Positions 138-23,232 of a DNA stretch of 37,288 nt are shown here, one piece after another. The notes below the pieces were generated by a model. That model was not told where the DNA came from. It searched no databases and was given only the letters and a program-made list of their open reading frames with translations. This stretch comes from a virus: positions 1 to 37,288 of the IMG/VR virus record IMGVR_UViG_3300027906_002599; one strand, given 5' to 3'. The position numbers and the translations under genes were made by a program. The stretch's first letter is position 1, and the number at the start of each line of letters is the position of its first letter.

Positions 138-992
138 TTAGATAAACAATTTTCCGGTATCGTACATTTCTTCCATTTGTTTGAACGTTAATTCATGACT
201 GCCATGTACTCTAAGTGTTACTCTAGGTTCTCCATTAGTTTTTACTCTATGCCACTGATTAATATTTACCATGTAAGGATTATGCATACCAACATGCTCA
301 GTAATAATTTCTAATTCATCTTCCCAAACACTTGCATTGGGCCAATGACTATCAACAACCATTGTCATATCATTGAGTACAGTTGTTATCGGTTCTTGTG
401 CAATATGATAATCTTGACAAAATTGTTCTATTAACTCTAGTTCTGCATTCCACATATTTTCACTTGGTTTTGCAAACTCTAAACTACTACCTTCTTTGTC
501 TCCTAGTAATCTAAAATTACATAGACCAGGATGTCTATAAGCATCTAAAAATACAGAATTAAAATCTTCTGGTGCTGTTGCTGGTATTGATACAGGCCCT
601 TCTTTGTGCCACTGTGTAGATTTAGAAAAACATAATACAGTAACTGGCGGAGTGTTTAAACCATTTATACTCCAATTGTTTTGTAAAAAATCTGGGTTGA
701 ATGTTTCGTGTAGCCAATCTGATACTCTTCTTTTTAATTCTAAGTTTGATATAAAACCGATACCATTAAATGCTTGTTGCTTGTTATCTGAACTGTTTGA
801 CCATCTATTTGCTTTTGCTTCTGTAGGTATTTTATCAGATGTCCAATTTGTCCATCTAATTTTTCCAGACTGTACTGTGATTTCGTCTGGTATTACATTA
901 CCGTTAATCATGTCTATGTCTTGTTCTGTAAAAAAGTCTTCCGCTGTAAACGGAAACTCTACTCCAACACAATCACAATAACATTCTAGCAT
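138..992 (-). CDS. Putative Fe(II)/2-oxoglutarate oxygenase-like protein, array copy 5
   Basis: This 284-aa protein is the last of five tandem paralogues. A double-stranded beta-helix oxygenase signature is visible: His129-x-Glu131 (QWHKEGP), a middle strand NFRLLGD near 159-165, and distal His248 followed nine residues later by Arg257 (WHRV...PRVTLR). This is the HxD/E...H...R layout of Fe(II)/2-oxoglutarate dioxygenases, with Arg257 the likely 2-oxoglutarate binder. Seen in sequence: all putative metal ligands are present. Inferred: enzymatic activity and substrate, neither of which can be read here. It ends in the paralogue-specific helix (LTFKQMEEMYDTGKLF). The start overlaps the previous gene's stop at 992. 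A catalytically dead beta-helix protein or a virion-associated role is possible. Confidence 0.62.
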   Translation of the reverse strand: MLECYCDCVGVEFPFTAEDFFTEQDIDMINGNVIPDEITVQSGKIRWTNWTSDKIPTEAKANRWSNSSDNKQQAFNGIGFISNLELKRRVSDWLHETFNPDFLQNNWSINGLNTPPVTVLCFSKSTQWHKEGPVSIPATAPEDFNSVFLDAYRHPGLCNFRLLGDKEGSSLEFAKPSENMWNAELELIEQFCQDYHIAQEPITTVLNDMTMVVDSHWPNASVWEDELEIITEHVGMHNPYMVNINQWHRVKTNGEPRVTLRVHGSHELTFKQMEEMYDTGKLFI

Positions 993-1873
993 TATTTAAA
1001 AAACTCTCCTGCCTCTACCATTTGTTCTATTTGTTCAAATGTTAAATTTGTATTAGCATGTATTCTAAAAGTAACTCTAGGTGTGCCATTTGTAACTACT
1101 CTGTGCCATTTACCAACATTAACAATGTATGGATTATGTTGTCCTACATGTTTTGTAATTGGTATTAAATTTGGTTCCCAAACATTATTATGAAATAATT
1201 GTAATGTACTTGCCATAATTAAGTTCTTATGTTCTGTTGCAGTTGTCAACATAGGATCTGGTGCTGTAGAGTTTTTAATATCTTCTATAAACATTTCAAC
1301 TATTTCGTCTTCTGCTTGTTGCATTTCTTCATCTGGTTGTGCAAATTCTATATAACTGTTATCTACATCACCTAAAAGTCTAAAATTAATTACTGCTGGT
1401 GGTCTCCTAGAATTATCAAAGTCTGGGTGTGGTACAGGTCCTTCATTATGCCAACCACTAGTTTCCATAGAAAAACATAATACAGTAACTGGAGGTGTAT
1501 TAGTACCTGATGAAAATTTCCAAATCTCTTGAAAATAATCTGGGTGTAACGTTTCATTAAGCCACTCCCATACATCACGTTTTAATTTAGTATCTGTTAT
1601 TATTGCATTACCATTAAAACTACCAAAGTCTGCACGGTATCCTTCTCCAGCACCATCTGTAGACATTTTGTATGTATATCTACTCCATTTTAATTTTTCT
1701 GATTTTATAAAAGTGTCTTGACCTCTAAAAGCCGACAAGGCTCCAAAGGACTTATCTTCCATAATTTCCCCTTCTCTAGTACCGTGAATCATTTCTATAT
1801 CTTGTTCAGTAAGAAAATCGTCCTTATTAAAAGGAAAGTCTATGCCAGGTAAGTCGCAATAACAACCGTTCAT
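992..1873 (-). CDS. Putative Fe(II)/2-oxoglutarate oxygenase-like protein, array copy 4
   Basis: This is a 293-aa paralogue of the neighbouring genes. The N-terminal CYCDLPGIDFPF is nearly the same as in copies 3 and 5. The putative facial triad is His142-x-Glu144 (GWHNEGP) and His257 (KWHRV), with Arg266 nine residues after the distal His as the likely 2-oxoglutarate anchor. The conserved NFRLLGD strand lies near 163-169. Its stop overlaps the start of copy 5, and its start overlaps the stop of copy 3 by 4 bp, the usual ATGA-type coupling. There is no separate promoter, so it is probably translated from the gp13 transcript. Substrate unknown. Confidence 0.62.
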   Translation of the reverse strand: MNGCYCDLPGIDFPFNKDDFLTEQDIEMIHGTREGEIMEDKSFGALSAFRGQDTFIKSEKLKWSRYTYKMSTDGAGEGYRADFGSFNGNAIITDTKLKRDVWEWLNETLHPDYFQEIWKFSSGTNTPPVTVLCFSMETSGWHNEGPVPHPDFDNSRRPPAVINFRLLGDVDNSYIEFAQPDEEMQQAEDEIVEMFIEDIKNSTAPDPMLTTATEHKNLIMASTLQLFHNNVWEPNLIPITKHVGQHNPYIVNVGKWHRVVTNGTPRVTFRIHANTNLTFEQIEQMVEAGEFFK

Positions 1874-2682
1874 TTAAAAAATTCTCCGTTATCAACTAAA
1901 CGTTCTATTTCTTCAAACGTTAAGTCTGTATTAGCATGTATTCTAAATGTAACTCTAGGTTCTCCATTAGTATTAACTTTATGCCATTGAGATAAATTTA
2001 CAATATATGCATTATGCATACCAACATGTTCTGTTATTTTAGTTAATCCAGTTTCTTCTTCTAGCCAATGCTGGGCCGCTGTAAAAACTACACCTTCATG
2101 TTCTGCAGAATGTATCTCACCATTAACATCATTATACCATGTTTCAAAGTATTTGTCAATACATTCTTTTTCTTTTATATTTAATTCGTCATTTGCTTCT
2201 GCAAATTCTAATGTACTACCGTCTGGGTCGCCTAGCAATCTAAAGTTAATTACTGCTGGTGCTCTTGGTTTAGATACAATGTCTGTGTTTATATGTTCTG
2301 ATAAGTTTTCAGGAAACTGTATTGGTCCTTCTCTATGCCAAGCAGTTGGGTGTGAGAAACATAAAATAGAAACTGGTGGAGTTTTTCTTCCACCCATATT
2401 CCATATTTTTTGAAAGTAATCTGGATGTATAGTTTCATGTAACCATTCCCAAACATCTTTTTTTAACTGTTGGTCTGTTATTACTGCTCCGCCATTTAAG
2501 ACATCATCTTTTGACCATTCTGTTGTTGACCAATTTGCATACCAATTTATTTTTTCAGTTTGTATAGAAGGTGTCTTAGGTATTTCTTTTCTACCATAAA
2601 TCATATCTAAATCTTGTTGAGAAAGAATATCATTAGTAAAAGGTAACTCAATACCAGGACAATCACAGTAACAACCTAGCAT
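1870..2682 (-). CDS. Putative Fe(II)/2-oxoglutarate oxygenase-like protein, array copy 3
   Basis: At 270 aa this is the shortest of the five paralogues. Key residues are His116-x-Glu118 (AWHREGP), NFRLLGDPDGS near 146-156, His234 (QWHKV) and Arg243 (PRVTFR). The order and spacing match the Fe(II)/2-oxoglutarate beta-helix oxygenase pattern. The N-terminus CYCDCPGIELPF is shared with copies 4 and 5, which makes these three the closest group. It overlaps copy 2 by 7 bp upstream and copy 4 by 4 bp downstream. The Cys-rich N-terminus (three Cys in the first eight residues) is specific to this sub-group; its role is unknown. Confidence 0.62.
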   Translation of the reverse strand: MLGCYCDCPGIELPFTNDILSQQDLDMIYGRKEIPKTPSIQTEKINWYANWSTTEWSKDDVLNGGAVITDQQLKKDVWEWLHETIHPDYFQKIWNMGGRKTPPVSILCFSHPTAWHREGPIQFPENLSEHINTDIVSKPRAPAVINFRLLGDPDGSTLEFAEANDELNIKEKECIDKYFETWYNDVNGEIHSAEHEGVVFTAAQHWLEEETGLTKITEHVGMHNAYIVNLSQWHKVNTNGEPRVTFRIHANTDLTFEEIERLVDNGEFFK

Positions 2683-3623
2683 TTTAAAAACCGGTCTTCG
2701 TCTATTAATTGTTGTATATAATCAAAGGAATGTTTTTTATGTCCCATAAATCTTAAACTTACTCTAGGTGCTTCTGTTTTTATATTAACTCTGTGCCAAG
2801 AAGATAAATTTAAAAGGAATGGGTCATGGTATCCTTCTATTTTACCACAAGGTGTTAAATGACTTAACATTTCGTCACTTGATGTTTGGTCAATACTAGA
2901 TGATACGGAGATGCCACGTCCTTCAGACCACATTGTTTCTGGTTCTTTGCCATCTTGTTTCCATTTACTAATATATTCTTTGTTTAAGTTATCATATACT
3001 TCAGTAAAGTATTCATCTGGTTCTGCAACTTCTATAGAGCAATCATCAGGATCACCTATAAGTCTAAAGTTACATACAGCACTTGTACGTGATGTTTCTA
3101 TTCTGTTTTCAAATAAACTTTCGTCTGTAATTTTTCTCCAACCAGTTAAACCTTCTGTATGGAATGTACTAGGTCCACTAAATCCTATTAATGTTATAGG
3201 AACAATCTTTCTACCAGCAAAACTCCAAATGTCTGCTAGATAATCTTCATGGAATGTATCTAATGCAAACTCTCTTAACTTATACATTAAGTCTTTATCT
3301 GTTATTACACCTATGCTTGTTGGTGGTCTATATCCTAAATACTTTCTTTCTTCAAATGTTAAGTCTGCAAAATCTTGGTCTTTTTCTAATATAATATCTG
3401 TGCCAGCAAGTTTATGTTCGTTAGGACTATACATCCAATGCATTTTTTCTGTTTGTGCCATAGTCCAGCCAAACAAGTCAGGGTGTTCAACTATATCAAC
3501 TTTTTTGTTAAACCTTGCTCTGTCGTATATTAATTCGTAGTCATCGTCTGTAAATATATCTTCTACAGTAATTGGAAGTTCTAATCCTGGAAAAGAACAT
3601 AAATGATTTTTAACTTTTTGCAT
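2676..3623 (-). CDS. Putative Fe(II)/2-oxoglutarate oxygenase-like protein, array copy 2
   Basis: This 315-aa protein is the longest and a more divergent paralogue. It keeps His155-x-Glu157 (TFHTEGL), the middle strand CNFRLIGDPDD, distal His277 (WHRV) and Arg287 (APRVSLRF), ten residues after the His. Extra sequence near 60-100, including MHWMYSPNEHK, and an insertion around 225-255 distinguish it from copies 3-5. It overlaps copy 1 by 14 bp at its start and copy 3 by 7 bp at its end. The shared fold and tight coupling point to duplication within one operon. Enzymatic function is inferred only from motif conservation. Confidence 0.6.
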   Translation of the reverse strand: MQKVKNHLCSFPGLELPITVEDIFTDDDYELIYDRARFNKKVDIVEHPDLFGWTMAQTEKMHWMYSPNEHKLAGTDIILEKDQDFADLTFEERKYLGYRPPTSIGVITDKDLMYKLREFALDTFHEDYLADIWSFAGRKIVPITLIGFSGPSTFHTEGLTGWRKITDESLFENRIETSRTSAVCNFRLIGDPDDCSIEVAEPDEYFTEVYDNLNKEYISKWKQDGKEPETMWSEGRGISVSSSIDQTSSDEMLSHLTPCGKIEGYHDPFLLNLSSWHRVNIKTEAPRVSLRFMGHKKHSFDYIQQLIDEDRFLKC

Positions 3624-7571: not shown

Positions 7572-9428
7572 CTACAGCGATTCTTTATATTCTTGTACAG
7601 ATAGTGTTCTAGGGACATCTTCATTAAAAAGTGTTACAGTTTCATATCTATTATGTTTATTAATGTCAAATATTCTATTAAAATATGTGCTATAATCTTG
7701 AAACATTTGGTATCTTAGGTCGTTTGAATTCTTTACAGGATCAAAGTCTTGCCAATACTTGTTGTGTCTAAATTGTACTGTTGTTTGATGTGCTATATGG
7801 TGTGATTGTTGTGTAGATAATCCGTGTTTGTTTTTAGTTAATAAAATGCCTTCCCATACTTTACGGTCATCTTGTATAGTATATCCTTCTTCTTCTAAAT
7901 TAGTTTGTATGCTACTAGTTGTTTTTGTTGGGTCTGATTTAGAATAATCCGGTTGTACCTGTCTAATTGTATAAAGTTGTACAACTGTTTGGTCTAATTT
8001 ATTATAATCCATATCTATTAATTTATAATGCATTTCTTTTATACCTTCTAAAGTATCTTCTGGTAATCCATACATAAAGTTAGAATGTAAGAACACATTT
8101 TTAAATTTATCTGCTTTAAGTTCTCTAATATATGCCATTTGTTCTTCGGGATGCCAACCTTTACCGATTGAAACAGCACTATCAGGTATTAATGTTTCTA
8201 TACCGTAATGAGCATATTCAAGTCCACTTTCTAGTAGAATATCTTCTTGCTTTAATCTGTTCTGTAAATCTAATCTTAAAAAACAAGAATACGTTAAAGG
8301 TATATTATGTTTTGTTTTTATTTCTGCTATTCTTTCTAATTTTGCAGTATCATCATTTAGTGTATCATCTGTTATCCAATATCTACTTACTCCGTACTCT
8401 TCCCAATTACGTTTTAATTCATCTTCAAGTCTTGACGTACTTCTTGTATAAGTGCCTTTTGTTTTTCCTATTAAATTAAACTCACAGAATGTACATTTAA
8501 AAATACAACCTCTACCTAGTTCTAATCCAATACGTTGGTTTGGTAAAATAACATCTTCGTCAAAATATTCCATTGTGCTGTTATAAATGTCAAGCATACT
8601 TTTAGGATCACTGTAAGACTCTTTGCTGTTTCCTTCTTCTAAGTCTTTTAGCATATCTCTAATAGTTACGTCTGCATATCCAAACATACGAATATCTATA
8701 TCATCTAAAGGAGTCTTATTTTTACTAACACCACCAAACTCTTTTGTGTAATTATATTGTACTCCTCCTATAACTAATTTAGTGTTAGGATTTTGTTCTA
8801 ATATCCACGGTTTAATTAAATGTTGCCTACCTGGAGGGAAAAACGAACTATTCAATAAACCATATTGGTCTTTATGAAATGAAAATACTTGACCAAACAT
8901 TACTGCTTTAGTGTTTTCTCCAACAAATTTTTGTATAATTTTATGTACAGTATCTTCACTTACATGTAAAAGGTTGTGGATAACTTGTACTGTATAGCCT
9001 AATTTTCTTATTTCATGTGCAACTTTATCACTGCCCATAGCACGACCATCATGTTGGTCTAAAGAGGGCCAAGTTAAATAATATCCAGCATTTTTAAGTT
9101 TATCTTCGCCATTAGCAGTACTTAAAAGTTCTTTTCTAGATGGTAATTTATAACATTGTTCTTCAAAGAATTTTGCTTTTCCCATATATTCAGTATGAAA
9201 AAAGTCGTCTGACCATGACTCGCCTGGCTTATACATTTCCTTTAAAATCATTTCATACTCTCTGCCACGTTGAGGATCAGAAGCAAAGATTAATACATCA
9301 ACAGGAGTGTGTTCGAAATCTTTGTCTATTTCGATAGCAAGTTTTATGTCTTTTTGATTTTTCCAGTCTATACCAGGATCTCCACCTGGTCCTGACCAAT
9401 TATACCAATCTTGAAGAACGTCTTTCAT
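7572..9428 (-). CDS. Radical SAM protein, possibly with an N-terminal B12-binding-like domain
   Basis: This is a 618-aa protein. The radical SAM cluster motif C308-x3-C312-x2-C315 (GRGCIFKCTFCEF) is intact and would hold a 4Fe-4S cluster to cleave S-adenosylmethionine. Downstream strands (YWITDDTLND, YSCFLRLDL, YGIETLIPDS, NFMYGLPEDT) fit the radical SAM TIM barrel. The part before the cluster, about 120-290, includes RKLGYTVQVIHN and KLVIGGVQYNY, reminiscent of the Rossmann-like cobalamin-binding domain in B12-dependent family members; the classic DxHxxG signature is not clear, so this part is weak. The reaction is unknown. It lies just after a ferredoxin-NADP reductase, a plausible supplier of electrons for the cluster. 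The ATG at 9428 is 5 nt after a GATAAGTA octamer. Confidence 0.85.
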   Translation of the reverse strand: MKDVLQDWYNWSGPGGDPGIDWKNQKDIKLAIEIDKDFEHTPVDVLIFASDPQRGREYEMILKEMYKPGESWSDDFFHTEYMGKAKFFEEQCYKLPSRKELLSTANGEDKLKNAGYYLTWPSLDQHDGRAMGSDKVAHEIRKLGYTVQVIHNLLHVSEDTVHKIIQKFVGENTKAVMFGQVFSFHKDQYGLLNSSFFPPGRQHLIKPWILEQNPNTKLVIGGVQYNYTKEFGGVSKNKTPLDDIDIRMFGYADVTIRDMLKDLEEGNSKESYSDPKSMLDIYNSTMEYFDEDVILPNQRIGLELGRGCIFKCTFCEFNLIGKTKGTYTRSTSRLEDELKRNWEEYGVSRYWITDDTLNDDTAKLERIAEIKTKHNIPLTYSCFLRLDLQNRLKQEDILLESGLEYAHYGIETLIPDSAVSIGKGWHPEEQMAYIRELKADKFKNVFLHSNFMYGLPEDTLEGIKEMHYKLIDMDYNKLDQTVVQLYTIRQVQPDYSKSDPTKTTSSIQTNLEEEGYTIQDDRKVWEGILLTKNKHGLSTQQSHHIAHQTTVQFRHNKYWQDFDPVKNSNDLRYQMFQDYSTYFNRIFDINKHNRYETVTLFNEDVPRTLSVQEYKESL

Positions 9429-11034: not shown

Positions 11035-12066
11035 ATGCCAAGATTACAACTGTGGAACAAGAACAAAACTAATGACTACGGCTTTATAGATAGAGTTGTA
11101 GCAGAAAGTATCAATGCCGGCGGCACAGGAGTCTATGTACACAAATACATAGGCACATATACTGATGACTCAACAGCCAGTATTGGTAGTGGCGACTTGT
11201 ATATACAAGACGTTATATTCTTAGAAAACAGAGATAGAAAATACGACCCAGACATTTACGAACTACGTGGAGCATATAATATAGCAGAACCAGATTTTGA
11301 TTTAACACAATTTGGTATGTTTTTATCTAACGATAGTTTGTATATGACTTTCCACATGAACTCATGTGCAAGTTTACTTGGCAGAAGGTTAATGGCAGGT
11401 GATGTTTTAGAACTACCACATTTAAGAGATGATTTACTTTTAGGTGGTGGTGAAGCAGTTAATAGATTCTTTGTAGTAAGTGATTGTGGCAGACCAGCAG
11501 AAGGATATGATCCTAGATGGTGGCCCCACTTATGGAGATGTAAATTAACTAACATTACAGACAGTCCAGAATACAGAGATATTCTTGGTACTGGAGAAAC
11601 TGCAACTGATTTAAGAAATGTTCTTAGTACATACAAAACAGAAATTGAAGTTAGCGACAAAGTTATGGCAGTTGCCAATGCTGAAGTTCAATATGATGCT
11701 GGAAACTTTGAAGGTGGTCATTTATATGTAGATGAAACCAGTGTAGATAAGCCAGGTGTGTACTTCCCAGGAGATGGCTCTGCACCTAACGGCATAAGTA
11801 TTGTTGGAAGTGGAGATTCATTCCCAATAGGATCAAACAACGGAGATTATTTCTTGAGAACAGATTTTGAACCTCATAGATTATTTAAGAAGTCTGGAAG
11901 TAGATGGATTAAAATTAGCGATGACAACAAGAAGGCTTGGAGTGCCGCTAATAAAATACTTACTTCCTTTATTAATAATGATAATATTACAACAAACACA
12001 GATGGTACAACTCAAGTTGAGAAAACAAACCTCAGTAAAGCAGTTAAACCTAAGGCAGATAACTAA
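11035..12066 (+). CDS. 14: Neck protein, T4 gp14-like
   Basis: The 343-aa protein aligns by eye with T4 gp14 over its N-terminal half: an early VVAESINAGGTGVYVHKYIG block equals the AESI...G...Y block of gp14. Further on are a TQFGMFLSNDSLYMTF block, a GDVLELPHL segment and WWPHLWRCK. gp14 joins gp13 at the head-tail neck. It is longer than T4 gp14 (256 aa) because of a C-terminal extension containing a Gly-rich stretch (GVYFPGDGSAP and GSGDSFPIG) and a low-complexity Asn/Thr end. It starts a plus-strand late operon with gp15, and the stop overlaps the gp15 ATG. Confidence 0.78.
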   Translation: MPRLQLWNKNKTNDYGFIDRVVAESINAGGTGVYVHKYIGTYTDDSTASIGSGDLYIQDVIFLENRDRKYDPDIYELRGAYNIAEPDFDLTQFGMFLSNDSLYMTFHMNSCASLLGRRLMAGDVLELPHLRDDLLLGGGEAVNRFFVVSDCGRPAEGYDPRWWPHLWRCKLTNITDSPEYRDILGTGETATDLRNVLSTYKTEIEVSDKVMAVANAEVQYDAGNFEGGHLYVDETSVDKPGVYFPGDGSAPNGISIVGSGDSFPIGSNNGDYFLRTDFEPHRLFKKSGSRWIKISDDNKKAWSAANKILTSFINNDNITTNTDGTTQVEKTNLSKAVKPKADN

Positions 12067-13316
12067 TGGCTAATTTAGATTACTGGTATGACGCACAATT
12101 AAGAAGATACTTGATGCAATTCATGAGGATTTTTAATGACTTTAAAGTGTCAGAAGGTAAACGTGATGGTGCAACATACTATAATAAAGTTCCTGTAAGA
12201 TATGCAGACATGCAAAGAATGGTAGGACATATTATGAGAAAGGGTAGTGAAAACATGGTTAACTCTACTCCTTTTATAGCATGTAGCATTAACAGTTTAT
12301 TACTAGCAAGAGATAGGGCTCAAGATCCTATGTTAATTAGTAAAGTACAAGTTGCAGAAAGACAATATGATAGTGGTACTAGTCAATATAAAACGGGTAG
12401 TGATTCACAAAGTTTTCCAGGTAACTTATACAGCACAGATAGATATATGCCAGTTCCGTACAATTTAACAATGCAAGTAGACATTTGGACTGGAAATACA
12501 GACCAAAAATTACAACTGTTAGAACAAGTATTAATCTTGTTTAATCCAAGTATTCAATTACAACACTCTTCCAATCCTTTAGATTGGACTAGTATTTTTG
12601 AAGTGGAACTTACAGATGTAAATTGGTCAAATAGAAGTATGCCAGCAGGCGTCGATGAAACAATAGACGTTGCCACCCTAACATTTACTTTACCTATCTG
12701 GTTAAGTCCACCTGCAAAAGTACAAAGACAAAAAATTATTAATACAATTATAACTAATATTTACGATACATCAAATGTACAAGATTTAGGTTATGATGAA
12801 GATATATACGACTTCTTTAGAACAGTTGATTCACAATTTGAGTTACATACTGTAAGTCCAAACAATTACTATTTAGAAATGAATGGTACAGAAGCAACAT
12901 TATTTAAAACAGGACCTACAGAAGGTACTAGTTATGATGATGGTGAAACAACAAAAGCAAATTGGAATGATTTATTAGAAGTTATTGCTCCGCAAGGAGA
13001 TAAAGGTACGTTGTCTAATGCAAGTGTTACAATGAGTGATATACCTTTAACAACAGGAAGTACATTACAATTAAATATTTCAAACGATATAGATTCAACA
13101 ACTAGTCTTATTAGTGGATTTATTGCAAGAAATAGTATAGACCCAAGCAAATTAGTATTCACTATTGACAGTGATACATTGCCAACTAATACATTAACAA
13201 GTTTAACAAAAATTATTGATCCTACAGCAAGTTATCCAGGCGATGGTACATTAGCCGCCGCCACAAATGGACAAAGATATTTACTTACATCAGAGATTTC
13301 CGGAGACAATTGGTAA
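12066..13316 (+). CDS. 15: Tail terminator / sheath stabiliser, T4 gp15-like, cut by an in-frame TAA
   Basis: The visible product is 416 aa. The N-terminal YWYDAQLRRYLMQFMRIFND and KVPVRYADMQRM match the T4 gp15 opening (FRRY...F..., VPI.YA). The blocks LQLLEQVLILFNPSIQL and VATLTFTLPIWLSPPAK match its later strands. gp15 caps the tail tube and sheath and receives the head. The reading frame stops at TAA (13314-13316), yet the same frame stays open for 64 more codons with sequence that looks like the true C-terminus (see next entry). This could be a nonsense mutation, programmed readthrough or a base error. The core gp15 domain is complete before the stop. The C-terminal region beyond about residue 220 is a long Ser/Thr-rich extension absent from T4. 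Confidence 0.8.
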   Translation: MANLDYWYDAQLRRYLMQFMRIFNDFKVSEGKRDGATYYNKVPVRYADMQRMVGHIMRKGSENMVNSTPFIACSINSLLLARDRAQDPMLISKVQVAERQYDSGTSQYKTGSDSQSFPGNLYSTDRYMPVPYNLTMQVDIWTGNTDQKLQLLEQVLILFNPSIQLQHSSNPLDWTSIFEVELTDVNWSNRSMPAGVDETIDVATLTFTLPIWLSPPAKVQRQKIINTIITNIYDTSNVQDLGYDEDIYDFFRTVDSQFELHTVSPNNYYLEMNGTEATLFKTGPTEGTSYDDGETTKANWNDLLEVIAPQGDKGTLSNASVTMSDIPLTTGSTLQLNISNDIDSTTSLISGFIARNSIDPSKLVFTIDSDTLPTNTLTSLTKIIDPTASYPGDGTLAAATNGQRYLLTSEISGDNW

Positions 13317-13511
13317 TATCTGCAGACTAACAATGACATAATTGAGTATAACGGTAGTGCATGGACTAAAGTATTCGATGCATCGGCTGTTACGGCTGTA
13401 CATTATGTCACAAACACATTTACAGGAAAACAGTATCAATGGAAAAACGAAACGTGGACAAGCACTTACGAAGGGACGTACAACCCAGGGTTCTGGAAAA
13501 TCAACATCTAG
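13317..13511 (+). pseudogene. Continuation of the gp15 frame after the in-frame TAA
   Basis: The gp15 frame continues open from 13317 to a TAG at 13509-13511. It encodes 64 residues with DIIEYNGSAWTKVFDAS, HYVTNTFTGKQYQW and a terminal YNPGFWKINI. The aromatic and Gly-rich strand pattern follows directly from the RYLLTSEI segment before the stop and reads like one beta-domain. It has no start codon of its own, so it is best seen as a detached or readthrough C-terminus of gp15. The Nudix gene begins inside it in another frame. Confidence 0.65.
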
Positions 13512-13990
13512 AAGAAAAGAGCATTATAGAAAAATTAAATCCTTTGACCAATCTTAATAAACATAAGGGCATTAGTGCCGCAGGTGTTTTGTTTTTAGCA
13601 AAAGACACAGGTAGATGTTTATTCCAACTACGCAATTCAGATAAAAGACAAAAACATACTTGGGGATTTTGGGGAGGCATGATAGAAGGAATAGAAACTC
13701 CTTATGAAGCCTTACAAAGAGAACTATCAGAAGAAATTGGTCTTGTTCCTGAACTTAAAAAATTAAATCCATTAGACGTATATCAAAGCAAAGACAAAAA
13801 TTTTATGTATTACAGTTTTTGCTATGTAGTAGATAAAGAATTTCAACCTACACTAAATGATGAGAGTTGTGGGTATGCTTGGGTAGACATAGGACAGTGG
13901 CCCAAACCATTGCATGATGGAGCAAGAAGTACACTAGGACGTAATAAAGGCACTGGTAAACTGCACACTATACTTAAAATCAATATGTGA
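13439..13990 (+). CDS. Nudix hydrolase
   Basis: The reading frame is 183 aa. A complete Nudix box, G-x5-E-x7-REL-x-EE-x-GL, is visible at residues 80-102 (GMIEGIETPYEALQREL and onward), giving the Mg-binding Glu residues. The WGFWGGMIEG approach matches the family. Nudix enzymes hydrolyse nucleoside diphosphates linked to another moiety; the substrate here is unknown. The ATG at 13439 overlaps the residual gp15 frame by 73 bp. The first 30 or so residues look unlike the rest, so translation may begin later, for example at a non-ATG codon near 13490. The C-terminal YAWVDIGQWPKPLHDG suits a small Nudix protein as found in other T4-like phages. Confidence 0.85.
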   Translation: MEKRNVDKHLRRDVQPRVLENQHLEEKSIIEKLNPLTNLNKHKGISAAGVLFLAKDTGRCLFQLRNSDKRQKHTWGFWGGMIEGIETPYEALQRELSEEIGLVPELKKLNPLDVYQSKDKNFMYYSFCYVVDKEFQPTLNDESCGYAWVDIGQWPKPLHDGARSTLGRNKGTGKLHTILKINM

Positions 13991-14858: not shown

Positions 14859-16724
14859 TTATTTGTAAAGTTTTCTTATTTCACCATCGAACAGCGGAGC
14901 ATAAATTTTTACAGGCTCCTCTTTTCCTTTTACAGTAACTTCATCGAGTTCACGACATGCAATATCCGTAAGTTGCATGTATGTAAATTCACTCAATAAG
15001 ATAGGAGTGTCTTGTTTTCTAGTCTCGGCTTCTAATCTAGCACCTAAGTTTACAGCATCGCCTACAACACTATAATCTAATCTAGTTTCAGCACCCATAT
15101 TACCAACAATACATGTACCTGTGTTTACACCTGTACCAAATTTAACTCTAGGCAATCCTAATTTTTCCATTTCTTTTTCTAATTCATCACCAAGTAATTC
15201 AATTTCTATTGCAGTTTTAACTGCCATCTCTGCATGATTTTCACATGGTATTGGTGCATTCCAAAATGCCATTATACAGTCGCCCATGAACTTATCTATC
15301 GTTCCACCGTTGGCTAATACTATGTTTGTCATCTTATCTAAGAAACTATTGATTAATTCTACTAATCCTTCAGGGTCATCATTCTTCATATACTGCTCTG
15401 ATATAGGAGTAAAGCCGACTATATCTGCAAATAAGAAACTCATCTCTTTTCTTTCTCCGCCTAACTTCATTAAACTTGGATCTTTTACTATCATATCTAC
15501 ATAGTCAGGTGAAATATATGTGCCAAATTGTCCTTTTATTTGCTGTCTTAACTTGTATTGCTTGTAAAAATTGTTAAAAGCACTCTGGGTAAACACTAAA
15601 AATCCACTAATTACCGGGAAAGTTGCGTCCATTAACACTAGGTGATTTGTGTAAAACCACACACTTCCATAGGCTTCTGTACCCAAAATTAGCATGGAAA
15701 TAGGTGCTGTCCACAGTAAAGGTAACTTATAAACAGCAAAAGCAATCAATATCATACCCAACAGGGCTCCTAAGAGCTCGTATAAAGCACTTAATTCGTT
15801 TCGCTGTATATTTGATCCATCTATAAAATTCTGTAGCATATGGCCCTGTATATGCTGTGGATACATAAGTCCTTTTGGAGTAGGAACAGGGTTTTGAACA
15901 CCTTCTGCTGTAACACCTAGTATAATAAACTTGCCACCTAGGTCTGGTAGACTGTTTATATCCACATATTCTACTTCTTCAAAGGTGTTATTAAAACGTA
16001 TAAATGCTGTTCCAATTGGTTGTGTTACTATAGGATCAAAAGGTGGTACTGCAAATTCTTGTATTCCTATCTCAGATGTCTTTAACATATAACTTGGTTT
16101 TTGTGTATATGTTCTTAACATCTCAATAGCAAAACTAGGGTAAATTTTTTCATTTACTGTTATTGCTAATGGGTAAGTTCTTGTAACTAAATCTGGTTGT
16201 GGTGCTGAAGCAAGTACTCCAATACCCTCTGCTTGTTCTTCAAGGATAGAAACGTTTGTTACGAGATTGGGCCACTTTAGCAAAGATTGGGTCGGGTTCA
16301 AAGGTCCTATCGTGCCTGTTCCAATGTGCGGGCCTGAACTCCTTATCCCCTTCGTTGAAGGTGTCTGGCTTAAAACTATGCCGTTTCCTTTCATCCAACT
16401 TGCTAAAGTTTCGTCTCCGCCAAATCGGTCCGTCTCGGGGAACATCACGGTCAAGCCAATGATACCACCATTCTTCTGTCTGATGTCGTGAATTACCTGG
16501 GCAAAATTCTGTCTGGGCCATGGCCATTGTCCCCATTGTTGTAAACTTTTCTCGCCAACATTAATAATAACAATTTCATCACTTTGTTTTGGCTCGTCTA
16601 ATAGTTGTAAAGCATCGAACGTTTGTAGTCGTAGACTTTGTATAGGCGTAGGATCTAATATTTTTACTGTCGTGAGTAAACAGATTGTTACCACAACTGC
16701 CCAACCACTGTATAACCACTTCAT
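14859..16724 (-). CDS. CHASE2-domain class III adenylate cyclase
   Basis: The 621-aa protein has an N-terminal membrane segment (about 6-20), a periplasmic CHASE2 sensor (about 30-300, with DEIVIINVGEKSL, WPWPRQNFAQVI and GGKFIILGVTAEG), three membrane segments (about 312-380) and a cytoplasmic class III cyclase domain (about 425-615). Catalytic features are intact: metal Asp434 (FADIVGFT), Lys478 and metal Asp482 (IDKFMGD), Asn559 and Arg563 (GDAVNLGAR). Lys478 favours ATP; Ser552 sits where Asp or Thr is usual. It should convert ATP to cAMP in response to an envelope signal. The ATG at 16724 is chosen because a late octamer lies 5 nt upstream; longer readings run into the next gene. CHASE2 cyclases and FecR proteins often co-occur in bacteria, as here. 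A bacterial origin is likely. Confidence 0.92.
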   Translation of the reverse strand: MKWLYSGWAVVVTICLLTTVKILDPTPIQSLRLQTFDALQLLDEPKQSDEIVIINVGEKSLQQWGQWPWPRQNFAQVIHDIRQKNGGIIGLTVMFPETDRFGGDETLASWMKGNGIVLSQTPSTKGIRSSGPHIGTGTIGPLNPTQSLLKWPNLVTNVSILEEQAEGIGVLASAPQPDLVTRTYPLAITVNEKIYPSFAIEMLRTYTQKPSYMLKTSEIGIQEFAVPPFDPIVTQPIGTAFIRFNNTFEEVEYVDINSLPDLGGKFIILGVTAEGVQNPVPTPKGLMYPQHIQGHMLQNFIDGSNIQRNELSALYELLGALLGMILIAFAVYKLPLLWTAPISMLILGTEAYGSVWFYTNHLVLMDATFPVISGFLVFTQSAFNNFYKQYKLRQQIKGQFGTYISPDYVDMIVKDPSLMKLGGERKEMSFLFADIVGFTPISEQYMKNDDPEGLVELINSFLDKMTNIVLANGGTIDKFMGDCIMAFWNAPIPCENHAEMAVKTAIEIELLGDELEKEMEKLGLPRVKFGTGVNTGTCIVGNMGAETRLDYSVVGDAVNLGARLEAETRKQDTPILLSEFTYMQLTDIACRELDEVTVKGKEEPVKIYAPLFDGEIRKLYK

Positions 16725-16729
16725 GCATG

Positions 16730-16737
16730 TATTTATC
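16730..16737 (-). promoter_or_regulatory. Late promoter octamer before the cyclase gene
   Basis: GATAAATA on the minus strand ends 5 nt before the ATG at 16724 and overlaps the last codons of the upstream TM-protein gene. No ribosome binding site lies between. Confidence 0.6.
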
Positions 16738-17203
16738 GTCCGGCTATAATGCTTACTGTCATCATGACTACCGCAAAAATAACAATACATAAACATACTA
16801 CTGCTGTTACATCTATTGCAAATTTTTTACTTTCTGCTTTACGTTTAGCCTCCATTAATCTGGCTTGTCTAATGACACGTCTTTCACGCATCATATCTTC
16901 GTAAAAATTTTGCTGTCCTGTATAGATTAAATACTCTCTCAACTCTTTTTCAAGTTGTGCCATTTTATGTTTTGCGGCTGTAATTTCTAAAGCCTGTGCT
17001 TCTACACTACCACCAGCCATATATTTTTTTGCTAAAGATGGATTTTTGCTGTATTGATTTGCTTCTGTAATTGCATCTCTGGCATCAAAAAACCGACCGA
17101 AATACCCGGTGACATCTTCAATATCCCGACCCATTTCTACTGCTTTTTTGATTCCGGTAAATGCCTGACTAGCCATCGATATGGCTACGGCGACTTCAAT
17201 CAT
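16733..17203 (-). CDS. Helical protein with a C-terminal membrane anchor
   Basis: This 156-aa protein has helices from the N-terminus (VAVAISMASQAFTGIKKAVE), a charged coiled region near 80-125 (MRERRVIRQARLMEAKRK) and one hydrophobic segment near 130-153 (VTAVVCLCIVIFAVVMMTV). This gives a tail-anchored inner-membrane topology. I recall similar proteins in other marine T4-like phages, annotated only as hypothetical; a holin or spanin-like role is possible but unproven. A strong AGGAGG lies about 8 nt before the ATG, and a GATAAATA octamer 41 nt upstream gives it its own late promoter inside the curli cluster. Confidence 0.7.
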   Translation of the reverse strand: MIEVAVAISMASQAFTGIKKAVEMGRDIEDVTGYFGRFFDARDAITEANQYSKNPSLAKKYMAGGSVEAQALEITAAKHKMAQLEKELREYLIYTGQQNFYEDMMRERRVIRQARLMEAKRKAESKKFAIDVTAVVCLCIVIFAVVMMTVSIIAGR

Positions 17204-17244: not shown

Positions 17245-17252
17245 TATTTATC
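17245..17252 (-). promoter_or_regulatory. Late promoter octamer before the 16733-17203 gene
   Basis: GATAAATA on the minus strand overlaps the curlin-like gene's stop codon. It leaves a leader of about 35 nt holding the AGGAGG site. Confidence 0.65.
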
Positions 17253-18157
17253 TAATCTTGTGTTATATTGATAGTGCAACCACCGACGGTTACACATGTT
17301 TGAGTTAAATTATAATTTTGTGCTGTGCCACTATTTTGTGTTAAATTTAACGTTGTTGGTTGGGTACCATATAGAGTTATATTGGCATTATGAGCACCAT
17401 TCCCTTTTTGTACTCCACTTATTTGACTATAGTCTTGATAACTTTTATAGTTTACTGTTTTGTTTCCATCGTTAATTTGTTTCCACCAAATGTCTTGTTC
17501 GTCACCATATATCCATATATTTGCAGTATGACTGCCTGGTGTATTAGTATTACCGTTTGTTTGATATCCAACAATAACATTATTATCTCCATGATAATCT
17601 AATATAACTTTATGACCACCATGCTCAGAACCATCACCTTGACTAAATGTTGTATCATTTATGTTGTTAAGTCCAACACCTTGACCCCATCTCATTAAAT
17701 TGTTGTCTCCCCAAAAGTGAAAGCCTGCTTCAGTATATCGACAATTATTGTCTTCTGTACATTTTTGACTAATTTCTATTTCATTATCTACGCCGTCTAC
17801 GTCTCCACACCAAGTTGAATTAGGGCAATTTACTTTACCCCAAGTACTTGTAAATCCTGCAAATTGCTTCTCGCCTACTTGCGTAATTTTAACAGAGTTT
17901 CCATCTCCAGATACAGAGAATTCAACTTCATTGTCTTCTCCCAACTGCCCAATCCACATAGTTAAATTATCTACATTGCCATATTGTAATCCTAAGTCCA
18001 AATCAATATGCTGGTCTTTACCTTGTTGGTCAATATTTAAAACTAAATCGTCACCAACCTGGTCTATATGAACATGGTTGTGTCCTTCACCGGCAAATGC
18101 ATCATAACTTGCTGTTGCACAAAATATTGCTAATAATGTTCCTAATATATACTTCAT
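17252..18157 (-). CDS. Curlin-like (CsgA/CsgB-type) secreted amyloid repeat protein 2
   Basis: The 301-aa protein has a signal peptide (MKYILGTLLAIFCATASYDAFA, 22 residues). The mature part is repetitive and rich in Gln, Asn and Gly. It has curlin-like strand-turn units such as VHIDQVGDDLVLNIDQQG, GDGNSVKITQVGE and GDNNVIVGYQTNGN, and ends in INITQD. This alternation of Gln-x-Gly-x-x-Asn turns and short strands is the hallmark of curli subunits, which stack into cross-beta fibres. Six Cys occur, unusual for curlin. It starts directly after the FecR stop with no gap. The CsgG/CsgF genes in the same operon support export through the curli pore. Which unit nucleates and which polymerises is unknown. 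Confidence 0.8.
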   Translation of the reverse strand: MKYILGTLLAIFCATASYDAFAGEGHNHVHIDQVGDDLVLNIDQQGKDQHIDLDLGLQYGNVDNLTMWIGQLGEDNEVEFSVSGDGNSVKITQVGEKQFAGFTSTWGKVNCPNSTWCGDVDGVDNEIEISQKCTEDNNCRYTEAGFHFWGDNNLMRWGQGVGLNNINDTTFSQGDGSEHGGHKVILDYHGDNNVIVGYQTNGNTNTPGSHTANIWIYGDEQDIWWKQINDGNKTVNYKSYQDYSQISGVQKGNGAHNANITLYGTQPTTLNLTQNSGTAQNYNLTQTCVTVGGCTINITQD

Positions 18158-19363
18158 CTAATCTACCTGTATAATTGTTATAAATGTTCCTTCGCAATCA
18201 TTAAGACATATTGTGGTGTCTTTTAAGTTACTATCTTCTATAAAGATTTTAGCACTATTACCTGACTGTTGTTTAATACTTACTGTATTAGTTACTTGTC
18301 TAAAGAAGAATATTTTACCATCTTCTGTAATAGTATTAAACTGCGTTGTGTCATCAAAACCTAAAGCAGTTCCTGTAATTTTATCGGTTCCTAAACTTCC
18401 TTCTGAATTTTCTCCGCCTTTACTTTTACTTTTTCCGCCTACTTCTACACTTTCCTCTTCTATAATTTCTAACAAATCTTGTAAGAAATCTACATCTAAG
18501 AAGTTAATGTCTAACTGACTAAACTCTAAATCTTCTGTTGTATCTTTCAATACATCTGCTTCAATGGCATTAGCATCTAATCCATCAAAGTCTAATAATC
18601 CACCATCTCCTTTTGATTCTTCTGCTTGTTCATCAACTGCTTCTGTAATCTCAGTTGGTTCACTTACAATAAACATGTTATCAATCATGTTTAAATCCAA
18701 ATCTGCAAGAAGAACTGGATTAGTTGGTGCTTGTTCATATGTACTAACCATTACAGCCTGAAATGCTTCAGTTAATACTTGTACACCACCATCATTTGTG
18801 ATAGTAATACTACCACTTGGAGCACAACCTTCTTCTAAACGTACTCCGTCTGTACATCTTTGGTCTGGTAATAATATTACCAAACTTCTTCCCAACTCAT
18901 CTACAGTAGTAGTAAAGTCGGTTCCCCTAATACCTATAGTAGCAGTAGGAGTTTTTACAGTTATATTTTCTTTTGGTACTAACCCTAACCCGCCAGTGGC
19001 AAATCGTGCAGTCCCTTGCACGAAATCTAATGCCATCCTGCTTTTACTGGGGTCAGGATCGTACACATATTCATTAATAACCATGTATGTGTGTTCCGTT
19101 AAACTAACTAGTGTGTCATCTATAAACTTTAGTTTAATACGACCATCAATCGTTTCAACTTCGTCCATGCTCTGTATGTCTGTGTCTAGTTCTGCAATCA
19201 ATTTGTCACCAGACGTCCTTTTAATACTTCCAGGTGAGCCACTTTGCTCAAATACTCCGCCGATACTTTCATTGGCACCGGCGGAAATACTGTATGTTGC
19301 ACTAAACAATAAAAATGCGTATAAACAAACTTTAGTCAGTTTGTCTGATACTAACTGATGCAT
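18158..19363 (-). CDS. FecR-domain exported protein with a curlin-like C-terminal tail
   Basis: The 401-aa protein begins with a signal-type hydrophobic segment (VCLYAFLLFSATYSISA). A FecR domain follows at about 35-190: GSIKRTSGDKL, IKLKFIDDTLVSLTEHTYM, VINEYVYDP, FVQGTARFATGGL, and VKTPTATIGIRGTDF, the classic FecR core. An acidic, Leu-rich middle (about 230-330) is followed by a last 60 residues with curlin-like units (NTVSIKQQSGNSAKIFIED) and the end ITIIQVD, like the ends of both neighbouring curlins. FecR domains sense or relay signals in the periplasm, or act as surface structural modules. ATG 19363 is used; GTG 19369 is an alternative. It overlaps curlin 1 by about 30 bp. Confidence 0.85.
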   Translation of the reverse strand: MHQLVSDKLTKVCLYAFLLFSATYSISAGANESIGGVFEQSGSPGSIKRTSGDKLIAELDTDIQSMDEVETIDGRIKLKFIDDTLVSLTEHTYMVINEYVYDPDPSKSRMALDFVQGTARFATGGLGLVPKENITVKTPTATIGIRGTDFTTTVDELGRSLVILLPDQRCTDGVRLEEGCAPSGSITITNDGGVQVLTEAFQAVMVSTYEQAPTNPVLLADLDLNMIDNMFIVSEPTEITEAVDEQAEESKGDGGLLDFDGLDANAIEADVLKDTTEDLEFSQLDINFLDVDFLQDLLEIIEEESVEVGGKSKSKGGENSEGSLGTDKITGTALGFDDTTQFNTITEDGKIFFFRQVTNTVSIKQQSGNSAKIFIEDSNLKDTTICLNDCEGTFITIIQVD

Positions 19364-20150
19364 TTTCACTATCTAAATCAACGTCGATTTTACCAGGACA
19401 TACAGGACTACATGTAGCCGCATTACTTTGTAAAAACTGGAAATCACCATCTGAACCTACTAAAACAAATTTTAAGTAGTGGTCAGAGTTACCAGTTTGT
19501 TTTGATGTAATAGCATTATCATCACCAGTAATGTTCATTTCCCAAGTTGCGGAACCGGCATCAACTTTAATACCACTTTGTGAAAAAGCAGATGTACTGT
19601 TCCAACCAGAACCTGGAGTTCCACCCCAAGTTTTAGTATTATTAACAGCACTTCTAAAGTCGTTTCTGTCCCCTAGTATTGTTAAATCCATATTAAGGTT
19701 GTCTGCGGCAAGGTCTCCACCGATGTCAACATCAAATATGTTAGTATCACCTTGAATATTCCAAAGCATATCAACACTATCTGCACTACCTGTTGCACCT
19801 ATGTTCATATCTACTGAGTTACTATCTCCTAAGAAATATAAATCCCAAACAGTTGAACCAGAACCGTCTCCAGTCCATGCACCAAATATTTCATTACTAT
19901 CACCATCTTGGATAATATCAATAATCAAGTTTGCTCCAGTAATGACTAAATCACTACCATCAGAAGCATCACCTGTTATTTTGTTACCACTACCAGCCTG
20001 TAATATGGTCAAAGTTAAATTATCCCCTTGTTGGTCCAATAAAACTTCGTTATCGTCAGCACCTAAGGCAGGAGCATAAAGTCCAACCGTAAGTCCCATA
20101 ATCGCGAAGACATTGATTGCAAAATTTCTAAATAAATTTCTAGTCTTCAT
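19332..20150 (-). CDS. Curlin-like secreted amyloid repeat protein 1
   Basis: This 272-aa protein has a signal peptide ending near residue 31 (LYAPALGA). The mature part is acidic and Gly/Asn/Asp-rich, with repeated strand-turn units about 20-25 residues apart: DQQGDNLTLTILQAGSGN, IIDIIQDGDSNEI, LYFLGDSNSVDMN, WNIQGDTNIFDVD, LTILGDRNDF and MNITGDDNAI. It ends in VSIRQTD. The (L/I)xxxGDxN turn resembles curlin repeats, with Asp replacing some Gln/Asn. It lies directly after csgG, overlapping it by 11 bp, with GGAG before the ATG. Its likely role is a fibre subunit exported by CsgG. The family call rests on repeat pattern and context. Confidence 0.75.
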   Translation of the reverse strand: MKTRNLFRNFAINVFAIMGLTVGLYAPALGADDNEVLLDQQGDNLTLTILQAGSGNKITGDASDGSDLVITGANLIIDIIQDGDSNEIFGAWTGDGSGSTVWDLYFLGDSNSVDMNIGATGSADSVDMLWNIQGDTNIFDVDIGGDLAADNLNMDLTILGDRNDFRSAVNNTKTWGGTPGSGWNSTSAFSQSGIKVDAGSATWEMNITGDDNAITSKQTGNSDHYLKFVLVGSDGDFQFLQSNAATCSPVCPGKIDVDLDSENASVSIRQTD

Positions 20151-21120
20151 TATTTTCTCCGTTATTCTTCAGGAGCATTTTCTCCCAAAGTTTTTTGTCG
20201 GCTTTGAGGTCCTCTTCATCTATGTCTACTTTCATCCAAGTTGCTTGTTCGTCAGGAGAGAGTTCCTGTACGTCCCACCCTTCAGGGTAAACAATTTTCC
20301 AATAACCTCGTTCATCGCCTTGTTGTATAAGTGCCAATACTGCGGCTTCAATAGCCGAACGTACTGCCCACGTTACACTTTCGTTCTCTGTCATACCACT
20401 TTCTAGTTCAAGCAACTTGGTATCCATATCTAGGAATCTAAATACGTCTCCGGCTTGTCCAGTACTCAAAATGGTTTTGTATGTCTGTACGTTGAGTAAC
20501 ACTTCGCCGGTGAGTGTGCTAACGGCTCTAAGTGATACTACAACACTATCTCTTCGATATTGATTCGCTGTACCAATACCGAGATATCTTGCACCGTTAC
20601 CTCCAGTTTCAATATTAGTGTCATATCCAATGACTCCTCCCTCTAATATCATACCTGCAAATAACAATGGTTGGACTCCTTCTGCTGGTTTCTCTTCTGA
20701 AGCAAACTGTTCACGAGTACTACGAACAATCTGTCTTTCTCTAACCAAGTTGTCTAGTCCTAAACCTCTTTCTACTACTCTAAACCATGTGCCTTTAGGA
20801 TCGTCCTTAGCACCTGCGGCTTTGAGTGAATCTATTAATAAATCTTTTGCACCTTGTGTAACAGCGGTGCTGAAACTTGCAACTCCATCTGAACTAAATC
20901 TTTGTCCAGTTAAGTCTTCAAATTTATAAACTGCAACCACAGGCATAACCTCTGCCGGTGGCAAATTCCTTAATTTTTTATATGTGGGTAATTCTACAAA
21001 TTTTGGCTCTTCTATACATTCAAGTAAAGACGTTCCGCAAAGTTTGTCACCAGGAATTGAGACACTAGCACATCCACTAATGAACAAAGCAAATAATACT
21101 GCTATAAATCCTACTCTCAA
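20140..21120 (-). CDS. csgG: CsgG, outer-membrane curli secretion channel lipoprotein
   Basis: The 326-aa protein has a lipobox (ALFISGC, Cys17). It matches E. coli CsgG clearly along its length: VAVYKFEDLTGQRF, FSTAVTQGAKDLLIDSL, ERGLGLDNLVRERQIVR, GVIGYDTNIETGGNGARYLG, YKTILSTGQAGDVFRFLD and AIEAAVLALIQQGDERGYW. CsgG forms a nonameric outer-membrane pore for curli subunits. It is longer than E. coli CsgG (277 aa), with extra residues before the first strand and at the acidic C-terminus. The start is TTG at 21120, because an in-frame stop lies two codons upstream. The csgF stop is 3 bp away, so the two are surely co-transcribed. Confidence 0.96.
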   Translation of the reverse strand: MRVGFIAVLFALFISGCASVSIPGDKLCGTSLLECIEEPKFVELPTYKKLRNLPPAEVMPVVAVYKFEDLTGQRFSSDGVASFSTAVTQGAKDLLIDSLKAAGAKDDPKGTWFRVVERGLGLDNLVRERQIVRSTREQFASEEKPAEGVQPLLFAGMILEGGVIGYDTNIETGGNGARYLGIGTANQYRRDSVVVSLRAVSTLTGEVLLNVQTYKTILSTGQAGDVFRFLDMDTKLLELESGMTENESVTWAVRSAIEAAVLALIQQGDERGYWKIVYPEGWDVQELSPDEQATWMKVDIDEEDLKADKKLWEKMLLKNNGENNED

Positions 21121-21123
21121 TGT

Positions 21124-21624
21124 CTACCCGCCTAACGTTCCGATACCAATCGGTATCTCAATTTCTGTAACTGTACCGTCAACATCTACAATAGTAAGTC
21201 TAATATATTGTACTCCGTCTATGGTAACAATTTGATAAGATACTGCATTATCTTCAATAGAGAATGCACCTTCGGTTGAGTTAGTACAAGTTGGTACTTC
21301 TTCTGGGTTACAGAACATACTATCTACCAATCCTTTAGAAATCTGACTGTAAATTCTGCTTTCCAGATTTCTAATAAACTTATTGATAGTACTGTTTGAT
21401 TCTGCTCTATCTGCCGCTCTTAAAGCCGCTTCAACATCATCCCTAATTTTATCTTTCCTACTTTTTTCCTGATTCTCAATAGTTAAGTAATGAGCGCCAG
21501 TACCAATACCACTGAAACTAGGGTTCTTAAATTTATGTTTAAGTTGGTCTGCAAATACAGTTTGGCTACTAAAATAAAGTAGCATTACACCAATACCTAA
21601 TATACGTCCTGTGATTTTATTCAT
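21124..21624 (-). CDS. csgF: CsgF-like curli assembly factor
   Basis: The 166-aa protein has a signal peptide (cleavage after VFA, residue 25). The mature N-terminus HKFKNPSFSGIGTGAHYL corresponds to the E. coli CsgF segment FQFRNPNFGGNPNNGAFLL, which inserts into the CsgG pore. A helix (INKFIRNLESRIYSQISKGL) and a C-terminal beta part (YQIVTIDGVQYIRLTIVDVD) also match CsgF. CsgF couples the CsgG pore to surface nucleation. A charged insertion near 52-75 makes it longer than E. coli CsgF (138 aa). A strong AAGGAG lies before the ATG, which overlaps the upstream stop by 4 bp. Confidence 0.92.
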   Translation of the reverse strand: MNKITGRILGIGVMLLYFSSQTVFADQLKHKFKNPSFSGIGTGAHYLTIENQEKSRKDKIRDDVEAALRAADRAESNSTINKFIRNLESRIYSQISKGLVDSMFCNPEEVPTCTNSTEGAFSIEDNAVSYQIVTIDGVQYIRLTIVDVDGTVTEIEIPIGIGTLGG

Positions 21625-22662: not shown

Positions 22663-23232
22663 TTAACCTTGTTGATTAGGGTCTTCAATTACCGGTGCAG
22701 GTTGCACAGGTGCATCTTCAACAACTTCTTCTGGTGCCACTTCTGGTTCAGGAGCAACTTCAGGAGCAGGTTCCATTTCTGGTGCCGCTTCTTCAGGCAT
22801 TACTTCTTCAGGAGCAACTTCGACATTTGCTTCTTCAGGCATACTTTCAGGCGCAACTTCTACGTTTGCTTCTTCTGGCATACTTTCAGGTGCAACTTCT
22901 ACATTTGCTTCTTCATAGTGTACTTCATCATGGTCTAGCATGACATTTGCTTCTTCTACCCAGGCTGTGTCCTCAACATAACAATTAGCATCTTGCTCTG
23001 CAAGTTCACAAGGAACGTATGCCCAAGTCATTGCTTGTGCTTGTTCTTCTGCTATTTCGTTTTGTTTTTCTGATAATTCATTGAATAGGTCTCTGGCATT
23101 TTTTCTTTTATCAAGTTCTATACCTATTGCACGACCTTCGACTTCCAACATATCTTTAATACTTTTTTCCATTTCATTCGCTTGATGTTGCATGTCTTCA
23201 AGCATTTGTATCATTGATTCAGATTGGTACAT
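22663..23232 (-). CDS. Acidic repeat protein, unknown
   Basis: This 189-aa protein has two parts. Residues 1-70 are helical and look like a coiled coil (MIQMLEDMQHQANEMEKSI and further). Residues 85-189 are very acidic, Pro/Ala/Val-rich low complexity, with three tandem 13-14-residue units (EEANVEVAPESMP twice, then a variant) followed by PEV/APE repeats. Three Cys lie near 75-90. It has no signal or TM. AGGAG precedes the ATG at 23232, and a late octamer lies about 77 nt upstream. Such acidic tails can act as scaffold or nucleic-acid mimic modules, but no function is visible. Family not recognised. Confidence 0.7.
   Translation of the reverse strand: MYQSESMIQMLEDMQHQANEMEKSIKDMLEVEGRAIGIELDKRKNARDLFNELSEKQNEIAEEQAQAMTWAYVPCELAEQDANCYVEDTAWVEEANVMLDHDEVHYEEANVEVAPESMPEEANVEVAPESMPEEANVEVAPEEVMPEEAAPEMEPAPEVAPEPEVAPEEVVEDAPVQPAPVIEDPNQQG
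22796..22914 (-). repeat. Three tandem 39-42-bp repeats within the acidic protein gene
   Basis: Two 39-bp units and one 42-bp unit encode EEANVEVAPESMP-type blocks. The DNA copies differ mainly at third codon positions, so the amino-acid repeat is kept while the DNA drifts. Confidence 0.85.

Follow-up and report, generated by a model that had tools for sequence, protein, structure and literature searches.

Our analysis of a 37,288-nucleotide stretch of viral DNA (IMG/VR record IMGVR_UViG_3300027906_002599, positions 1 to 37,288; hereafter the window) showed that its CHASE2/class III nucleotide cyclase gene does not stand in isolation but closes a curli (type VIII) secretion cassette, in which csgF, csgG, cur1, fecR, cur2 and the cyclase gene follow one another in that order on the same strand (Table 1). 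The full cyclase open reading frame runs from 14859 to 16796 on the minus strand. A start codon within this frame, at 16724 (MKWLYSGW...), lines up with the starts of its relatives and is most likely the one used, giving a protein of 621 aa. A 156-aa protein (phrog_32327) is inserted between cur2 and the cyclase gene in the window; its position varies among the loci that have it nearby, and it is thus not a fixed member of the cassette. Next to csgF lie genes for two proteins of about 100 aa, each with a membrane helix at its N-terminus. Such a pair borders the cassette in most of the surveyed myoviral loci with enough flanking sequence, and continues to do so even where the cassette has been rearranged. 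An acidic protein with EEANVEVAPESMP repeats (22663-23232) is encoded between the tail fibre genes and the cassette, and an Rfam search of the window returned two tRNAs only.

Table 1. Positions of the cyclase gene, its domains and the neighbouring cassette genes in the window.
Feature	Position	Strand	Basis
CHASE2/class III nucleotide cyclase, 621 aa, catalytic set D-K-D-S-N-R	14859..16724	-	
Class III cyclase catalytic domain, residues 424-610	14895..15455	-	Pfam, fold matches, residues
Three membrane helices and signalling helix, residues 312-400	15525..15791	-	Model; identity profiles
CHASE2 region, predicted periplasmic sensor, residues 17-321	15762..16676	-	Pfam PF05226, E 1.5e-36
N-terminal membrane helix, residues 7-23	16656..16706	-	AlphaFold model
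156-aa phage protein with C-terminal membrane helix (phrog_32327)	16733..17203	-	
Cur2, second protein with curlin repeats, shuffled independently of adjacent genes	17252..18157	-	
FecR-domain protein, signal peptide-like N-terminus, proposed CHASE2 ligand	18158..19369	-	Pfam FecR, 5.8e-9
FecR C-terminal beta-strand domain, curlin-like I-x-I-x-Q end	18158..18340	-	
First curlin-repeat protein Cur1	19332..20150	-	Pfam Curlin_rpt, 3.3e-5
CsgG outer-membrane secretion pore	20140..21120	-	Pfam CsgG, 8.1e-46
CsgF pore accessory protein	21124..21624	-	Pfam CsgF, 4.2e-11
Small protein with N-terminal membrane helix	21621..21926	-	
Second small protein with N-terminal membrane helix	21927..22223	-	

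The first-pass annotation had described a complete, phage-encoded membrane cyclase with an intact periplasmic sensor, and both the Pfam matches and an AlphaFold model (mean pLDDT 88) agree with this description, the sensor being a predicted one. The CHASE2 match scores 126.7 bits, the Guanylate_cyc match covers residues 426-603 (E 1.3e-18) and the PF00211 score is 67.7 bits, against a curated cut-off of 21.9. In the model, the N-terminal helix is followed by a periplasmic-type alpha/beta domain (46-307), by helices at 312-333, 336-361 and 368-400, and by the cyclase fold, which places CHASE2 between the N-terminal helix and the three membrane helices. Among solved structures, this fold is closest to the catalytic domains of CyaB, Cya2 and CyaC; Pseudomonas aeruginosa CyaB and Spirulina CyaC share the class IIIb fold and the catalytic residues of the window's enzyme and differ from it in their sensor domains. 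The metal-binding Asp434 and Asp482, Lys478, Asn559 and Arg563 are all kept, as had been claimed, and Ser552 occupies the Asp/Thr specificity site. In class IIIb enzymes, a Lys combined with Thr or Ser at these positions goes with ATP as substrate; the Ser and Lys of the window's cyclase fit this pattern and predict a class IIIb enzyme that uses ATP. Ser552 had been thought a small oddity, but it is ordinary, since Ser is the commonest state among the bacterial CHASE2 cyclases fetched as relatives (59/80, the other 21 having Thr); the transition-state Asn is kept in all 80. The cyclase is under strong purifying selection, with dN/dS values against four near relatives of 0.05-0.10 for the catalytic domain and 0.12-0.14 for CHASE2. 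Taken over all comparisons, dN/dS is about 0.03-0.15 in most and higher in a few, mostly those of the membrane helices.

The major capsid protein of the window (31678-32817) is 70% identical to that of the Pseudomonas jumbo phage PA5oct and 64% identical to that of Vibrio phage 2.275.O, its gp15-like protein (12066-13316) is also closest to PA5oct (38%), and a 339,794-base IMG/VR contig with a 90% identical capsid protein and the same cassette is collinear with the window. These likenesses place the window in a marine PA5oct-like jumbo phage lineage with T4-type structural genes, so that the earlier label of a T4-like phage holds for the structural genes and not for the phage itself, which is not a small T4-like one. 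An origin from an HTVC008M-like phage is ruled out by the capsid and gp15 proteins. Contamination by host DNA is likewise ruled out, both by the T4-type structural flanks, whose gene order is preserved in many independent contigs, and by the isolated phages HTVC008M and Melnitz, which carry homologues of the cyclase together with the cassette, in the same gene order. Matches of the cyclase to Acinetobacter 'phages' were set aside as pieces of bacterial chromosome, being surrounded by iscU, hscA and mfd. The corresponding site of PA5oct, flanked on one side by a tail fibre gene and on the other by a hypothetical gene with NUDIX and gp15 genes after it, is without the cassette; a NUDIX gene is also found in the window (13439-13990). 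A window tRNA is identical to a SAR11 tRNA-Ala at 63 of 76 positions, a likeness that is uninformative for placing the host. Elsewhere in the window, four consecutive open reading frames of 270-315 aa (138-3623) all match, with identities of 24-29%, one and the same region of the 340-kb relative, which suggests a tandem family with fewer copies in that relative, and a radical SAM protein (7572-9428; Pfam Radical_SAM 4e-14), which in NCBIfam matches B12-binding radical SAM families best, had no counterpart in the collinear 340-kb contig.

The window's cyclase cassette is not the first to be reported, because a cassette with FecR and an adenylate cyclase has already been described in podoviral and myoviral pelagiphages and a regulatory role suggested for it (Wittmers et al., 2022; PMC9599517). 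Phage curli genes are also among the subjects of Zaragoza-Solas et al. (2020; PMC7029224) and of Buchholz et al. (2022; PMC9004378), the words cyclase and FecR being absent from the text of the latter. The novelty claimed in the first-pass annotation is therefore mostly pre-empted by published work. The pelagiphage type VIII cassette consists of the same genes in nearly the same order, also in marine phages, with its cyclase and FecR recognised as belonging to it; it differs from ours in its carrier, since the window's cassette lies in a PA5oct-like jumbo phage. Its presence in this lineage appears to be new, as the papers that we found on the cassette concern HTVC008M-like myoviruses and HTVC023P-like podoviruses, and a search for literature on jumbo phages with curli genes found none. 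Moreover, similar topologies were reported for the four cassette components that could be placed (PMC9599517), whereas we find exchanged cyclase halves, a catalytic class seen only in phages and co-inheritance of FecR with CHASE2. It is this exchange of output halves, the phage-only class (against a bacterial sample of about 100 sequences), the FecR link and the missing cAMP receptor that remain of interest.

Two scans of viral contigs, together with the isolates, yielded 161 loci, 156 of them with sequences long enough for alignment, and 68 dereplicated loci were used for the CHASE2 tree and the distance correlations. The 156 cyclases fall into two catalytic classes, one with Ser or Thr at the specificity site and the transition-state Asn (65 sequences), the other with Asp at the specificity site, Ser in place of that Asn and an additional C-terminal tail (91 sequences; hereafter D-S-R). 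Catalytic dN/dS values of about 0.03-0.11 indicate purifying selection in both. The cyclase of HTVC008M (AGE60353.1) has the architecture and catalytic class of the window's enzyme and a catalytic domain 65% identical to it, but its CHASE2 side is just 32% identical; conversely, locus L033 is 78% identical to the window on the CHASE2 side and 36% in the catalytic domain. The Melnitz cyclase (QZI94833.1) shares architecture and cassette with the window's, but has a D-S-R catalytic domain (33% identical) with the Asn to Ser change and the extra tail. Identity profiles place the main exchange break near residues 380-400, past the last membrane helix; within the window's lineage there is a further break at about residue 315-320, from which point the membrane helices diverge as well.

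The catalytic class changes at least four times on the 68-locus CHASE2 tree, each change being forced by well supported branches; this robust minimum replaces a first count of 10 obtained with FastTree from the 156 sequences. On the catalytic columns the D-S-R sequences form one clade with full support, whereas on the CHASE2 columns their grouping is rejected (AU test, p 0.003). The jumbo lineage behaves in the opposite way, forming one clade on CHASE2 and FecR and being rejected as one on the catalytic columns (AU test, p 6e-7). The CHASE2 and catalytic halves thus have separate histories, and the trees indicate repeated replacement of one class of output half by another behind CHASE2 sensors that are themselves related. 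The D-S-R pair was found in none of the 80 bacterial CHASE2 cyclase relatives and was absent from the motif-bearing best bacterial matches to a D-S-R model (20 of 21 loci), in a sample of about 100 bacterial sequences, with the matches to the model drawn mostly from 289 alphaproteobacterial genomes, so that the pair may occur elsewhere. It is conceivable, though in our judgement unlikely, that phages evolved a signal-making domain of their own in the D-S-R class and swapped it behind conserved sensors, in which case its product would be a nucleotide different from cAMP, or its role would be non-catalytic. If this were true, related phages would be running different private signals off the same curli sensor.

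In contrast to its own catalytic domain, with which its pairwise distances hardly correlate (r = 0.14, 68 loci), CHASE2 is tightly co-inherited with FecR. Across the 68 loci, the distance correlation with CHASE2 is 0.82 for FecR, 0.69 for both CsgG and Cur1 and 0.30 for Cur2; as cur2 separates fecR from the cyclase gene, plain linkage is not the reason for the FecR-CHASE2 link. The partial correlation of CHASE2 with FecR remains at 0.62 given CsgG, while that with CsgG falls to -0.06 given FecR. The association is strong within two of the three phage lineages (0.84 and 0.65) and weak (0.29, n = 16) in the third, the window's own jumbo lineage, where CHASE2 barely varies. Of 65 tree splits, CHASE2 and FecR share 15, CHASE2 and the catalytic domain nine, and FecR and the catalytic domain four. 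Mantel correlations of this kind mix shared ancestry with function, and they therefore support contact between FecR and CHASE2 rather than prove it. A similar pairing is found in bacteria, where 23 of the 80 CHASE2 cyclase loci have a FecR gene within 7 kb, compared with an expectation of about 0.01 per locus (25 FecR matches in about 34 Mb from 12 of the same genomes), and it has been reported independently for Campylobacterota (PMC9239204). The bacterial enzymes, including those of the Campylobacterota and of Bradyrhizobium and Thalassospira loci, are of class IIIb with Ser or Thr; unlike in the phage loci, CsgG, CsgF and curlin were not found near them, and the bacterial FecR domain often forms part of a much longer protein, unlike phage FecR.

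The FecR protein itself has features that could link it to the fibre. Its N-terminal half has a fold like the cell-surface signalling domain of PupR, with a marginal match to an adhesin anchoring domain (5ix9, E 0.013), and its last strand ends in I-x-I-x-Q, the Gln being invariant in 24 aligned sequences. A curlin-like C-terminal pattern, which we defined post hoc from inspected sequences, occurs in 67/68 FecR, 63/68 Cur1 and 55/63 Cur2 proteins, compared with 28 of 1117 other open reading frames and two of 24 bacterial FecR neighbours. Profile-profile comparison of the FecR C-terminus with the curlins gave weak support (hhalign P 0.0015-0.006).

These observations suggest a model, to which we give an even chance of being right, in which a phage-borne curli cassette has as its signalling output an ATP-using class IIIb cyclase that is gated by FecR. 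CsgG and CsgF would export the curlin proteins, the FecR domain would hold the FecR protein in the periplasm, and its curlin-like C-terminal strand would join the fibre or the pore. CHASE2 would then read the state of FecR and pass it inwards, along the three membrane helices and the signalling helix, to turn the cyclase in the cytoplasm on or off. What the enzyme would sense is thus fibre secretion or a disturbance of the envelope rather than a soluble signal from outside. The cassette holds together across three contexts in the surveyed loci; in three loci (L102, L103 and L104) it is inverted relative to the cyclase gene, with all genes retained.

This integrity of the cassette, and the way in which CHASE2 tracks FecR, argue against the simpler idea that the cyclase raises host cAMP to alter host transcription via a CRP-type regulator and owes its curli neighbourhood to a shared donor. 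The active site is intact, as this idea would have it, and cNMP-binding proteins are present in many marine bacteria. In one marine alphaproteobacterial family (loci L242 and L251, genomes G007 and G009), a CHASE2 cyclase adjoins two small cNMP-binding proteins, possibly a complete cAMP circuit. HTVC008M, however, infects a member of the SAR11 group. Two genomes were assigned to SAR11 by four 16S probe sites, and among 41 genomes of their family a cNMP_binding protein is absent from 40 and a class III cyclase likewise from 40, counts that apply to the hosts of HTVC008M-like carriers and do not transfer to the window's jumbo phage. We found no literature on cAMP reception in Pelagibacter, and in SAR11 cAMP would have no known target unless a different receptor exists. 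A cNMP-binding domain (PF00027) was also lacking from all eight carrier phage records searched, two complete genomes and the 340-kb contig among them. The rewiring of the host through cAMP proposed in the first-pass annotation thus finds no support in the SAR11-family genomes or these phage records, and we consider it improbable.

The same lack of a cNMP-binding effector in the phage records weighs against a Pycsar-like defence or superinfection exclusion system, in which envelope damage by a second phage would trigger nucleotide synthesis and stop the cell. The repeated exchange of output domains does resemble an arms race, and the catalytic domain distantly matches Pycsar cyclase profiles (PycC, 76 bits), but these matches reflect only the common class III domain. 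The hallmark of Pycsar, a cyclase with an adjacent cyclic-nucleotide-binding effector, was not found, the neighbours in the cassette having no effector-like match, and we think this explanation very unlikely. The curli pore and its regulators could instead time lysis, with the cyclase as trigger or by-stander, a role that would suit the two small membrane-helix proteins adjoining csgF in most surveyed loci that have enough flank and that agrees with the proposal made for CsgGF of Melnitz (Buchholz et al., 2022; PMC9004378). That proposal mentions neither cyclase nor FecR, the two small proteins have no family match, holin families included, and curlin proteins are present, making the cassette more than a pore; a function in lysis therefore seems quite unlikely to us.

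To our knowledge, second messengers made by phages have rarely been documented. Here, a phage supplies a complete sensor-cyclase, and SAR11, the sole host group in which the question could be asked, is without this class of enzyme or its usual receptor, which makes the purpose of the signal a puzzle. Co-inheritance gives CHASE2, an orphan sensor, a specific candidate partner, and naming FecR as that partner leads to a direct binding test, also for the many bacteria that have the same pair. The exchanged catalytic halves show that a sensor can be kept and its output altered.
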